34,034 nt of DNA from positions 1 through 34,034 of the IMG/VR virus record IMGVR_UViG_3300021602_000015. One strand, given 5' to 3'. Every line of letters begins with the position of its first letter. Positions within the stretch are counted from its first letter, which is position 1. Both the position numbers and the translations under genes were made by a program. Positions 8,014-30,885 of the stretch are shown one piece after another. The notes under the pieces are model-generated. The model was given only the letters and a program-made list of their open reading frames with translations. It searched no databases and was not told the DNA's origin. This stretch comes from a virus.

Positions 8014-8046
8014 CAAAAGAAAAGCCCGGGAAAAGGTCCCAGGCTT
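8014..8046 (-). terminator. intrinsic terminator of the hammerhead RNA unit
   Basis: Ten-bp stem AAGCCTGGGA/TCCCGGGCTT (one G.U), tail TTTTC. Confidence 0.82.
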
Positions 8047-8414
8047 CAATGTCTTTATCACTGACGGCACCAAGAATCCCCGGAACCGCTCTTCGCCACG
8101 CACCTTCAATGTTCCGTTAGATCGTTTAGATCCAACTTCCCTCCAGTGTTCTCGCAGCAACCTACTTCTATCATTTTCTATATATATGACATTATTATTT
8201 CCTCCACAGGATAATAATAAGTGGCCGGGGTTCTACCCCTACTCTATTAGTTTATCGTTTAGCATCCTTTGAATATATCCCCTTCGCAGATGGATAGTCC
8301 GCAAGTTACCTTTGGCCCTTATTTCTAATCCCATCTGGACAATTCCTATCACTGGTTAATAGGCTGTGGAGAGAGGATTTGTGTAGCGTACCGGTACCAT
8401 TGTTCCTAACACAA
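8014..8414 (-). ncRNA. structured RNA released by the hammerhead, ending at a terminator
   Basis: About 400 nt without convincing protein-coding content. Inverted repeats: CAGATGG/CCATCTG (8287-8337), a GGGG-TAGAA-CCCC hairpin (8226-8238 region), and ATTATTAT/ATAATAAT (8191-8218) that encloses GGAGG ahead of an ATG with only four codons. It ends at a 10-bp stem followed by TTTTC (8022-8046). Its 5' end would be set by ribozyme cleavage. Function unknown. Confidence 0.65.
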
Positions 8415-8529
8415 TACCATAAGACGAGAAGTCCCATCTTAGTCTCAACCGTGTACGTCCGGCGAGTTAAAAAGTTCCCTACGCTCCTCAAGTCTTACAG
8501 TTTCGTCCTTCCGGACTCATCAGTTGTGT
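8409..8529 (-). ncRNA. hammerhead self-cleaving ribozyme, type I, with 66-nt stem III loop
   Basis: All conserved core bases are present: CTGATGA (8523-8517), stem II GTCC-GGAA-GGAC (8516-8505), GAAA (8504-8501). Stem I pairs ACACAA (8529-8524) with TTGTGT (8414-8409). Stem III pairs ACTGTAAGAC (8501-8492) with GTCTTATGGT (8425-8416), ten pairs including two G.U. Predicted cleavage follows the GUA triplet, between 8415 and 8414. Stem III closes a 66-nt loop instead of the usual short one. A TATAAATA late promoter lies 15 bases upstream. Confidence 0.9.
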
Positions 8530-8535
8530 AATAAT

Positions 8536-8790
8536 TTACGAAGTATTTATATCACAAATATGAATAATATCATTTTCCTTTTCGTATGCTCTTGCCTCAT
8601 TCACATAATCTGATCTAGCTGGGTCCGACATTATTTCTTTAAGAAATAGTTCGAACATACTTTCATCATGAAAAATATGTATGTTAGTAAAGACCAAACC
8701 ATCATCTGATAAAGAGACGGAGCGAAAAAGCAAATATGAGCAATTCTTTATAAAATCCTTCATATTTCTAATTTTTGAATCTTCTGCCAC
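8536..8790 (-). CDS. hypothetical protein between two structured RNAs
   Basis: 84 aa from GTG 8790, or 75 aa from ATG 8763 (MKDFIKNCSYLLFRSVS); neither has an ideally spaced SD (GGGAGG abuts the GTG). Contains a central IHIFHDESMFELFLKEIM. No domain recognised. Its last codons contain the perfect late promoter that drives the hammerhead RNA. A late-type GATAAATA box lies upstream at 8855-8862. Confidence 0.6.
   Translation of the reverse strand: MAEDSKIRNMKDFIKNCSYLLFRSVSLSDDGLVFTNIHIFHDESMFELFLKEIMSDPARSDYVNEARAYEKENDIIHICDINTS
8544..8551 (-). promoter_or_regulatory. T4-type late promoter TATAAATA (hammerhead RNA)
   Basis: Exact T4 late consensus. Predicted +1 near 8538, about nine bases before hammerhead stem I. 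Embedded in the last codons of the gene at 8536. Confidence 0.78.
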
Positions 8791-8854
8791 CTCCCAAAAA
8801 AAGGTATATCTTTAGATGATCTAATTGAAGTTATAGTATCCGTCAGCATACCAT

Positions 8855-8862
8855 TATTTATC
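8855..8862 (-). promoter_or_regulatory. late-type promoter GATAAATA
   Basis: Between the T-loop RNA and the gene at 8536. Confidence 0.5.
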
Positions 8863-8880
8863 TTACATTTATATCAACTA

Positions 8881-9383
8881 CCCTTGCTCCGGTCTTGAAC
8901 CGGACACCGAATGGTCACTAAGGCATGCTTGCAGGACCCGATGACAAAACTCATTCAATGCATCCCCATTTCAAGAGTGTATCAAAAATTCCTAAGGGGA
9001 CTCGAAACCCCAAACTGATATATTAAAAGAATACCAGCGCAGCCGTTTAAGACGCAGGATGCAGGCCCACTGTCTCATACAGGAACTTATAGAAACAAGC
9101 TAAAAGGTGAAATAACACTACGGTGTCCTAAGTCAGCGAACCAACATTAGAACCAAACCGGGCCAGGGGACACCTCTCTAGCTGCAACAAGACTTGATAG
9201 ATTACACTTGCAGGTGGTGCTCTTTCTCGTCAGCTTGCTTCTATAAATACCCGCTCAACAACTATCGACGATGTAGCGGATTCGAACCGCTGGACGGGAA
9301 AGTATTGCTTCAACGACAAGCACTCTACCGTTCTATTCGTTATCAATCATAAACCACTCGATCAACGCCGTTTAACTCTCTAT
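8881..9383 (-). ncRNA. ~500-nt structured RNA with T-loop hairpins
   Basis: Gene-free stretch under a TTGACC-17-TATAAT promoter. Helices: TGCTT-GTCGTTG-AAGCA, AGCGG-TTCGAAT-CCGCT (T-loop), GGTGTCC/GGACACC (9123-9173), AAGTTCCT/AGGAATTT with one G.U, CTGGTA/TATCAG with G.U, ACTC/GAGT plus AATG/CATT (8945-8980), TCCGG-TTCAAGA-CCGGA (T-loop, 8889-8905). No full tRNA cloverleaf can be folded. The G.U pairs fix the strand as minus. Unknown role; could be a GOLLD/ROOL-type phage RNA. Confidence 0.65.
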
Positions 9384-9389
9384 GTGTTA

Positions 9390-9418
9390 ATTATATTGCC
9401 TTTACTGCTTGTGGTCAA
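9390..9418 (-). promoter_or_regulatory. sigma70-type promoter TTGACC-17-TATAAT for the T-loop RNA
   Basis: The -35 overlaps the HD-gene stop. No gene follows for ~600 bases, so it transcribes the structured RNA at 8881-9383. Confidence 0.8.
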
Positions 9419-11403: not shown

Positions 11404-11838
11404 TTAAACCTTTAGATATGCGATGTGTTCTTTGATTGCGTGTTTTTGGTAGGATGTCAACTTATCCCATACCGTATCTGCAACAATGCGACGATCATTG
11501 TATTCGTCATGTGCTTTCTTAAGATCTTTTAGATTTCGTTCAAGGGACTCGAGTTGCCATTCTTCTGTATCATATGTGACAACCTCATCAATATAGATTT
11601 TATTTGTATGATCTTCACACCTGAATAAAACCGAAGGCCCTGTATCTGTTAAACCTACCTGAGCCGATACGCCGAGATGACAAGCCAACTCCTGAGCTTC
11701 CATTAACCGCTTTGGGATGGTTGCTTTATACATCTCGATCAGCGCGGCGCTATTTAGTTCGTATAGTCTACGGGTCTCCGCTTCCTGAGCTATTCGTGCG
11801 GCCTTACGCCCGGAAGGATCAATTACTTTTGTTGCCAT
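11404..11838 (-). CDS. hypothetical protein (144 aa), leaderless, upstream of ligase
   Basis: MATKVIDPSGRKAARIAQEAETRR, with a coiled-coil-like C-terminal half. The ATG at 11838 lies only six bases after TATAAT of a perfect TTGACA-17-TATAAT promoter, so the predicted transcript begins at the start codon and no SD can be used. First gene of the ligase-HD operon. Family not recognised. Confidence 0.82.
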   Translation of the reverse strand: MATKVIDPSGRKAARIAQEAETRRLYELNSAALIEMYKATIPKRLMEAQELACHLGVSAQVGLTDTGPSVLFRCEDHTNKIYIDEVVTYDTEEWQLESLERNLKDLKKAHDEYNDRRIVADTVWDKLTSYQKHAIKEHIAYLKV

Positions 11839-11844
11839 GTATGT

Positions 11845-11873
11845 ATTATAGTTAGATTACATTAAGATGTCAA
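11845..11873 (-). promoter_or_regulatory. perfect sigma70 promoter TTGACA-17-TATAAT (ligase operon)
   Basis: The -10 ends six bases before ATG 11838; +1 predicted at the start codon. Confidence 0.88.
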
Positions 11874-12078
11874 CTGATAGTATCTCCAACCCGAGTCGTT
11901 TAATTTCAGCAATGTCCTTATCGCTGTACTTGTCTTCGTCGAACCAACCATAATAGCCTTGATGGGTAACTTCGTCATCCATCCAGCGGTCCATACTACC
12001 ATCGTCGAATACTCTGAAGCATCCCTCATCAGTATCGACATATGCAATTTTTTCTACATATTTGCTGTGAACTATCAT
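11857..12078 (-). CDS. small acidic hypothetical protein (73 aa)
   Basis: MIVHSKYVEKIAYVDTDEG, then FDDGSMDRWMDDE and GYYGWFDEDKYSDKD. Strongly acidic; could be a decoy or metal-binding protein but nothing specific is visible. ATGA overlap with the preceding gene. Confidence 0.75.
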   Translation of the reverse strand: MIVHSKYVEKIAYVDTDEGCFRVFDDGSMDRWMDDEVTHQGYYGWFDEDKYSDKDIAEIKRLGLEILSVDILM

Positions 12079-12281
12079 TTTACCTTTCTTGGTTTAGGGA
12101 AATAGCCTTCGGCAAGGTCGTCGGTGATAGAATTCATAAATCGAGTCATACTTTCGATATCACCGTGTGCCTGGAAAAATTTCTTCTTAGCACCATCGGC
12201 AAACCGTGTAACAGTGATATGAAGATACTTATCGATGTCTTCAGTAACTTCAAAATCAAACAGTGTCATCAATTTTTGCAT
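12075..12281 (-). CDS. hypothetical protein (68 aa)
   Basis: MQKLMTLFDFEVTEDIDKY, ending GYFPKPRKVK. ATG 12281 has AAAGG six bases upstream, inside the end of the HNH gene (26-base overlap). Unknown function. Confidence 0.75.
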   Translation of the reverse strand: MQKLMTLFDFEVTEDIDKYLHITVTRFADGAKKKFFQAHGDIESMTRFMNSITDDLAEGYFPKPRKVK

Positions 12282-29768: not shown

Positions 29769-29792
29769 AAAAGGCCCTTGCGGGCCTTTTTT
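29769..29792 (-). terminator. intrinsic terminator of the MoxR gene
   Basis: AAAAAGGCCC-GCAA-GGGCCTTTT, ending at the stop codon. Confidence 0.88.
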
Positions 29793-30885
29793 AATCTTCC
29801 AGGATGTATTTACCGTATTTTTCTTGGAATGTCTTGAACGTCTTCAGTTGCCGGTGACGAATAGGCAGGTTGTAATCACGCAGTGCAGTCTTAGCACCGA
29901 GCACAATCATCTCTGTCTGGAAATTGCTCATCATGTATGCAAAAAAGTGATCGATGCACTCATGCCATGTGTCCATAGTGAACCCATCTTCTTTTGCATT
30001 AGCCTTCGCAACCCATTCGTTCAGTGTGTAACACATAGAAATAGTCAGCGAATACATTGCGCTCAAGTCCTTAACATTAAGAGCCTTTTCCTTACCCATC
30101 AGCACATCTTCCGACTTAGGCATGCGAGCCGAAATCTTTCTGTGAGCACTAAATTCTGTTGCCAAGCCATCTCCGACAGTGCCAGCAACCAATGCCGTAT
30201 TCATCGACTCAGGAATATCATCGCTAATCAGTTGCGAAACGAATACCCAAGTACGCGGGGTAGCGAATGCCTTGTCCGGGCTCTTGCTGTCGAAGTTAAA
30301 CAATTTTTGTTTGTGATGCGACAAGAAACCTACCACGTCTGGGTGGATGCGGTTAGCGATTGCCCATTTTTGCCAATCTTCAAAGTTGGCCGCCATTTCC
30401 ATGTGAACCAAACGATTAGCCAACGGACTTGGCATACGATATGTCACACCCTTGTCGCTATCCCTATTCCCTGCACAGACGATAGATACACCTTTTGGCA
30501 AGTGATATTCGCCGACGCGCCGATTAAGAATAAGCTGATATGCAGCAGCTTGAACGCTGGGTGGCGCAGCATTGATTTCGTCTAAGAAGAGAATGGCATT
30601 TGCCATATATGTGTCGGTAGGCAAGTCAGCAGGCTGTGCCCACTTCATTGTCTTTGTTTCGGGATCGAAGTACGGAATACCTTTAATATCGGTAGGTTCC
30701 AACAACAGCAGACGCATATCAATCACAGGGCGATTAGTTTCTTCGCCGATCTCTGCAATCAATTCCGATTTACCAATACCGGGCGGCCCCCAAATCATTG
30801 CAGGGCGACCTACCTTCATACAACGAGTAAGAAGGGTGCGTACATCACGTGGACGTTCGACGCGGGAGGTATCAAGTGTAGCCAT
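29791..30885 (-). CDS. MoxR-family AAA+ ATPase
   Basis: 364 aa. Walker A GPPGIGKS (33-40), Walker B ILFLDEIN (98-105), sensor-type VCAGNRDSDKG and the following SPLANRLVH. MoxR-like ATPases act with VWA proteins as chaperones or remodelling complexes; the downstream neighbour is such a partner. A perfect TTGACA-17-TATAAT promoter (30926-30954) and TTGGAGA SD drive it; a strong terminator (29769-29792) follows. Confidence 0.93.
   Translation of the reverse strand: MATLDTSRVERPRDVRTLLTRCMKVGRPAMIWGPPGIGKSELIAEIGEETNRPVIDMRLLLLEPTDIKGIPYFDPETKTMKWAQPADLPTDTYMANAILFLDEINAAPPSVQAAAYQLILNRRVGEYHLPKGVSIVCAGNRDSDKGVTYRMPSPLANRLVHMEMAANFEDWQKWAIANRIHPDVVGFLSHHKQKLFNFDSKSPDKAFATPRTWVFVSQLISDDIPESMNTALVAGTVGDGLATEFSAHRKISARMPKSEDVLMGKEKALNVKDLSAMYSLTISMCYTLNEWVAKANAKEDGFTMDTWHECIDHFFAYMMSNFQTEMIVLGAKTALRDYNLPIRHRQLKTFKTFQEKYGKYILED

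Follow-up and report, generated by a model that had tools for sequence, protein, structure and literature searches.

A conserved long stem III in a predicted type I hammerhead within a large phage non-coding RNA

What does a phage hammerhead ribozyme do with 66 additional nucleotides at the end of stem III? The question is raised by a 34,034-nt stretch of viral DNA (positions 1 to 34,034 of IMG/VR record IMGVR_UViG_3300021602_000015; hereafter the window). The original prediction, made from the letters of this stretch, described a type I hammerhead whose 10-bp stem III is capped by a 66-nt segment, and proposed that this segment could be a regulatory domain, a ligand sensor or a cargo excised with the ribozyme. 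We compared the hammerhead, its stem III and the RNA that carries them across homologous loci.

The hammerhead and its homologues

The hammerhead is made up of the following elements, listed in the order of the transcribed strand.

8409-8529, minus strand: complete type I hammerhead, stem I to stem I, with the core CUGAUGA/GAAA/GUA and three stems
8529-8524 (ACACAA) and 8414-8409 (UUGUGU), minus strand: stem I
8523-8517, minus strand: CUGAUGA core
8516-8505, minus strand: stem II, GUCC-GGAA-GGAC, with the GNRA tetraloop GGAA
8504-8502, minus strand: GAA core
8501-8492, minus strand: 5' strand of stem IIIa, ACUGUAAGAC, pairing with 8416-8425
8425-8416, minus strand: 3' strand of stem IIIa, GUCUUAUGGU, pairing with 8492-8501
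8415, minus strand: A8415, the predicted cleavage-site nucleotide, in the triplet GUA; the cut is expected between it and 8414

Homologues were sought by protein neighbours and conserved DNA words, and six that bear the hammerhead, window included, were compared. Three of the six are closely related to one another (window, L121 and L124); L126 and L136 form a second group, and L261/L287 a third. A distant blastn search found no relatives in annotated phages, barring a 43-nt chance match; no annotated-phage relatives of the neighbouring phosphohydrolase were found, and an 18-mer scan of prokaryote species genomes gave three chance matches only. The window also encodes an ATPase (29791-30885) that is 55% identical to those of PA5oct-like Pseudomonas jumbo phages; this likeness, together with the 210-kb length of the L124 contig, suggests a jumbo phage.

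The order of the strands in the sequence places both ends of the hammerhead at stem I. The CUGAUGA and GAAA core with its A15.1-U16.1 pair is present in 6/6 homologues, as is the GUA triplet, which conforms to NUH. A core pattern that left stem II free matched the window once, with 0 mismatches, against a chance expectation of 0.18 matches in the window at up to two mismatches; the three stems are not counted in this comparison. When a 141-nt segment is folded, its minimum free energy (MFE) structure is that of the hammerhead, and about six more pairs lengthen stem III; the energy itself is unexceptional (z = -0.93), and for L124 and L136 the MFE folds are competing ones. Because Rfam hammerhead models score 22.5-28 bits, under the gathering score of 48.5, the identification is carried by inspection of the core and by covariation. 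In the trimmed alignment of the six homologues, 99.3% of hammerhead pair cells are formed and seven pairs are altered on both sides; 0/500 shuffles matched the covariation score, and none attained the pairing percentage either. Covariation falls in stems II and III, and stem I is paired and invariant. Stem IIIa has 10-11 bp in the homologues, with pairing kept at every variable position. The predicted type I hammerhead with a 10-bp stem III was thus borne out, with core and stems intact and covariation in all six homologues. On these sequence comparisons, the anatomy of the hammerhead, and that of the large RNA described below, is well supported, and we infer that the predicted ribozyme would cleave itself.

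The stem III insert

The insert was correctly placed by the original prediction to the nucleotide; its strand, then unstated, is the minus strand. It is built as follows.

8491-8426, minus strand: insert, 66 nt (33-71 nt across homologues)
8491-8490, minus strand: UU bulge
8489 and 8426, minus strand: G8489-C8426 pair
8488-8484 and 8431-8427, minus strand: stem IIIb, 5 bp, covarying in the six homologues
8483-8432, minus strand: variable cap (18-56 nt in homologues)

That natural type I hammerheads usually have a short stem III also agrees with what we found in phages: among the matches listed by a pattern survey of viral contigs, a biased sample since the patterns favoured particular stem II or stem I letters, the 165 unique type I hammerheads have a median distance from CGAAAC to the cleavage site of 14 nt (90th percentile 26 nt), versus 84 nt in the window.

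Beyond stem IIIa, the insert measures 66 nt in the window, 71 in L121, 68 in L124, 42 in both L126 and L136, and 33 in L261/L287. Its base is constant in form: a 2-nt bulge (UU, but UC in L124) is followed by a G-C pair, in most cases by a single bulged nucleotide, and then by five pairs. These five pairs contain the GAGG/CTTC extension noted earlier; it was confirmed, and the homologues conserve it as stem IIIb. The versions of this helix are AGGAG/CUUCU, AGAAG/CUUCU, UGGAG/CUUCU (one mismatch), AGGAU/AUCCU, AGGAU/AUUCU and AGUGU/ACACU, so that three of the five pairs change and pairing is nevertheless kept, a pattern to be expected if the helix is needed as a helix. The cap differs in length and sequence. 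All caps start with a variant of GUUnGGGA, the remainder differing between groups, and the shortest, in L261, has 18 nt.

This division between base and cap bears on whether the insert is simply tolerated. Since stem III is directed away from the active site, insertions there might be accepted without having any function, and segments of 30-110 nt do occur in stem III of the unrelated phage hammerheads L110, L112, L041 and L071. The maintenance of stem IIIb by compensatory change in six homologues is unexpected for neutral sequence, however, and we regard a neutral expansion as improbable. Had homologues carried random, unstructured inserts of variable sequence, the idea of a functional insert would have suffered; the variability was indeed found in the cap, whereas the base has conserved pairing.

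The inner hairpin that was proposed within the insert, GCG(T)AG/CTCGC, fared less well: it can be drawn in the window, but its A-U pair is lost in L121 and L124 and covariation is absent. An alternative cap hairpin, CUCGCCG/CGGUUGAG, which also appears in the MFE structure, keeps 95% of its pairs with one compensatory change. Through L121, three close sequences hint that this second hairpin may be somewhat better supported.

A natural aptazyme, in which the insert would bind a metabolite or a protein and switch cleavage, is mechanically possible, and it has been suggested that control may act through large hammerhead loops (PMC3088659). The cap argues against a ligand sensor, as its 18-56 nt show no clear common core beyond GUUnGGGA, and Rfam scans report no riboswitch family there; we therefore consider such a sensor very unlikely. 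The proposed regulatory domain may hold only if the term is taken loosely, for an arm that gives structure or protection; the sensor sense is unsupported.

Excision of the insert as cargo is the least credible of these proposals, to the point of being nearly negligible. Genes flanked by clustered hammerheads are known from other phages (PMC3088659; also contigs L253, L259, L262, L263, L266 and L270), but with one type I cut the insert stays on the 5' product, so its excision is impossible without a second cleavage site that escaped recognition. A single hammerhead matched in each of the six records searched that bear one, and a single one in the window. A retrozyme-like unit flanked by two hammerheads was rejected on the same count. 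As a separate observation, the six contigs just named and L107, L108 and L088 contain two to five hammerheads spaced hundreds to two thousand nucleotides apart, a layout that could release the intervening RNA segments. The long stem III itself looks like a structural handle, neither a sensor nor a cargo.

A large non-coding RNA around the hammerhead

The hammerhead forms part of a modular phage non-coding RNA, about 1.0-1.4 kb long and also on the minus strand, whose other landmarks in the window are these.

9390-9418, minus strand: sigma-70-type promoter of the large RNA, TTGACC-17-TATAAT (11/12 match)
8985-9088, minus strand: tRNA-like domain 1, an acceptor-like helix and a T-arm-like hairpin (94% of pairs)
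8880-8978, minus strand: tRNA-like domain 2, a 7-bp acceptor-like helix and a 5-bp T-arm with a UUCAAGA loop (97.5% of pairs)
8536-8790, minus strand: small ORF of 84 aa, between domain 2 and the hammerhead
8050-8408, minus strand: 3' domain of the large RNA, alignable in six homologues, the body of the predicted 3' cleavage product
8021-8047, minus strand: intrinsic terminator hairpin of the large RNA

The promoter layout (TTGAC[ACG], 17 nt, TATAAT or a close variant) recurs at 8/8 loci. A hairpin with a T-run stands at the place equivalent to the terminator in L121, L124 and L126, and L136 and L287 have a hairpin-like end, as judged by eye. From 8790 to 9415 the window has no ORF that reaches 60 aa. 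L126 shares a block of about 227 nt at 98% identity, compared with 69% for the neighbouring protein. Judged from its sequence, this DNA is evidently conserved as RNA.

Eight pairs of domain 1 and six of domain 2 are altered on both sides, and in L136 domain 1 is precisely missing. Towards its 5' end the large RNA has a variable part (9265-9375) that resembles a decayed tRNA: AGCGG-UUCGAAU-CCGCU is a T-arm, and UGCUU-GUCGUUG-AAGCA may be an anticodon-like arm; neither ARAGORN nor Rfam calls this tRNA.

Modular variation is most visible in the slot between domain 2 and the hammerhead. Its ORF in the window has no PHROG match; given a frameshift at a T7 run, it would extend upstream (MLTDTITSIRSSKDIPFF...) to a length of about 107 aa. 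It is missing from L121 and L124, unrelated small ORFs occupy the slot in L138 (44 aa) and L287 (59 aa), and a different structured segment is found there in L126, L136, L138 and L140. The ORF-bearing segment that is missing in L121 (8545-8876) is flanked by a 10-bp direct repeat, TGATATAAAT. The L287 ORF is Cys/His-rich (CKHRYVFDSKCGHHTDSYKCVLCGRIMKYHWGGG); on the reverse strand, it covers the stretch from about 190 to about 10 nt upstream of the hammerhead. In L140, an HNH-type ORF (11660-12163; MNYQQIYDKLINRAKNRIIPEQFERHHIIPDHF...) starts inside the hammerhead, directly after the core CGA, and is apparently a homing endonuclease gene inserted in the ribozyme; the contig stops before the other junction. 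L138 retains the core of the large RNA and has no hammerhead match, from which it follows that the ribozyme is not essential to the large RNA everywhere.

Known large RNAs were considered and rejected as the identity of this transcript: Rfam covariance models for GOLLD, ROOL, OLE, HEARO and tmRNA gave no match up to E-values of 5-10 in the window, L121 and L126, with the sole exception of a 12-bit cyano_tmRNA match to a T-arm. A scan of L287 returned nothing at the gathering score, and no description was found in the literature searched, the coverage of which was incomplete. The large RNA thus appears previously uncatalogued and has no Rfam family, and the ribozyme itself is a variant of known hammerheads.

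Stem I, the long stem III and a proposed fate of the RNA

The 3' strand of stem I, UUGUGU (8409-8414), is invariant in the six homologues, in which the other stems vary. It has a second potential partner in the 3' domain.

8379-8384, minus strand: ACACAA, second possible partner for the 3' strand of stem I (6 bp in every homologue, G-U pairs counted)

This partner lies 27-30 nt downstream in 6/6 homologues and is the sole 6-bp partner of UUGUGU within 40 nt. It occurs as ACACAA, as ACAUAA in L126 and as GCACAA in L136 and L287, and all the changed versions pair. The predicted pair probability of the partner helix is about 0.5-0.99 in five of the six and 0.1 in L287, where it is a minor conformer. 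The alternative pairing is a property of these sequences. By our own estimate, about one third of sequences would have a 6-bp partner, G-U allowed, within about 30 nt by chance, so that its conservation is suggestive only, and the case rests on its position and on the pairing of the three changed versions. A need for UUGUGU to serve two helices may explain why stem I is invariant, and the sequences suggest an exchange of strands by the stem I 3' strand after cleavage. A short product hairpin at the cut site (AUUGU/ACAAU), also present in the homologues, was rejected as a candidate: since 30% of other hammerheads and 29% of shuffles have a 4-bp version of it, it says little.

These elements can be joined in a mechanism to which we give an even chance: the hammerhead divides the large RNA, the long stem III shields the end of the 5' product, and strand exchange blocks religation. 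Cleavage would yield a 5' part, with the tRNA-like domains and sometimes a small ORF, and the 3' domain. At its 3' end the 5' product would carry the long stem III and, one nucleotide past the helix, a 2',3'-cyclic phosphate. The 3' exonucleases RNase R and PNPase need a single-stranded tail, and a flush terminal hairpin of this kind would shield the 5' product from 3' exonucleases. Once freed, UUGUGU would pair anew with ACACAA, some 30 nt downstream, and would thereby draw the product apart and block religation. Such end protection by stem III would explain why the long helix is kept as the cap drifts. Cleavage, end protection by stem III and strand exchange are all steps that we infer.

The main rival of this protective hairpin is a scaffold within a folded particle, and the two could coexist. 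Here the UU bulge, stem IIIb and the GGGA-bearing cap would dock on the large RNA or bind a protein, thereby placing or tuning the ribozyme. The UU bulge and G-C pair conserved between stems IIIa and IIIb, and the cap start resembling GUUnGGGA that recurs in all homologues, are consistent with it. Loop II adds to this: it is a GNRA loop (GGAA, GCAA or GUAA) in 6/6 homologues and also in the fragment from L140, versus 4/157 other phage hammerheads, and GNRA is a typical docking loop. A receptor that would give loop II a tertiary contact with stem I was not found, although the loop is conserved; nor was a receptor found for the scaffold, and the cap, which depends on the clade, shrinks to 18 nt in L261. 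We consider the scaffold rather unlikely as the explanation of the insert.

The nearest known relative of the ribozyme is the type I hammerhead of phages and bacteria (Perreault et al. 2011, PMC3088659), with which it shares the core, three stems, open stem I, NUH triplet and phage origin. It differs from it in the 33-71 nt stem III insert with a conserved stem IIIb, the GNRA loop II, a stem I strand complementary to a downstream site, and a large non-coding RNA as host. The discontinuous hammerhead of mammalian Clec2 mRNAs likewise has a very large insert in one stem; as described in PMC6155905, it is a type III hammerhead with the insert in helix I, whereas here a type I hammerhead has it in stem III, with a covarying stem. 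Theta ribozymes, according to PMC10879173, also combine a small self-cleaving ribozyme with tRNA or tRNA-like units in phages, but they have an HDV-like fold and real suppressor tRNAs, in contrast to the hammerhead and tRNA-like domains found here. GOLLD and ROOL (PMC12286853) resemble our RNA as large structured phage RNAs with a tRNA link and both conserved and variable parts, and their function is unknown; unlike them, the present RNA is unmatched in Rfam and contains a hammerhead and tRNA-like domains. Homo-oligomeric cages are a trait of GOLLD and ROOL.

Tentatively, and with slightly less than even confidence, we propose that this is a new modular large phage RNA, composed of tRNA-like domains, an ORF slot and a hammerhead, in which cleavage would be coupled to refolding of the 3' part through stem I. 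The purpose of phage-borne hammerheads is an open question (PMC6155905), and the hammerhead described here is given a defined comparative context, a conserved large RNA that would be cut in two. As it lacks an Rfam entry and its tRNA-like domains covary, the large RNA may represent one more family in the small set of giant phage RNAs, whose function is unknown.
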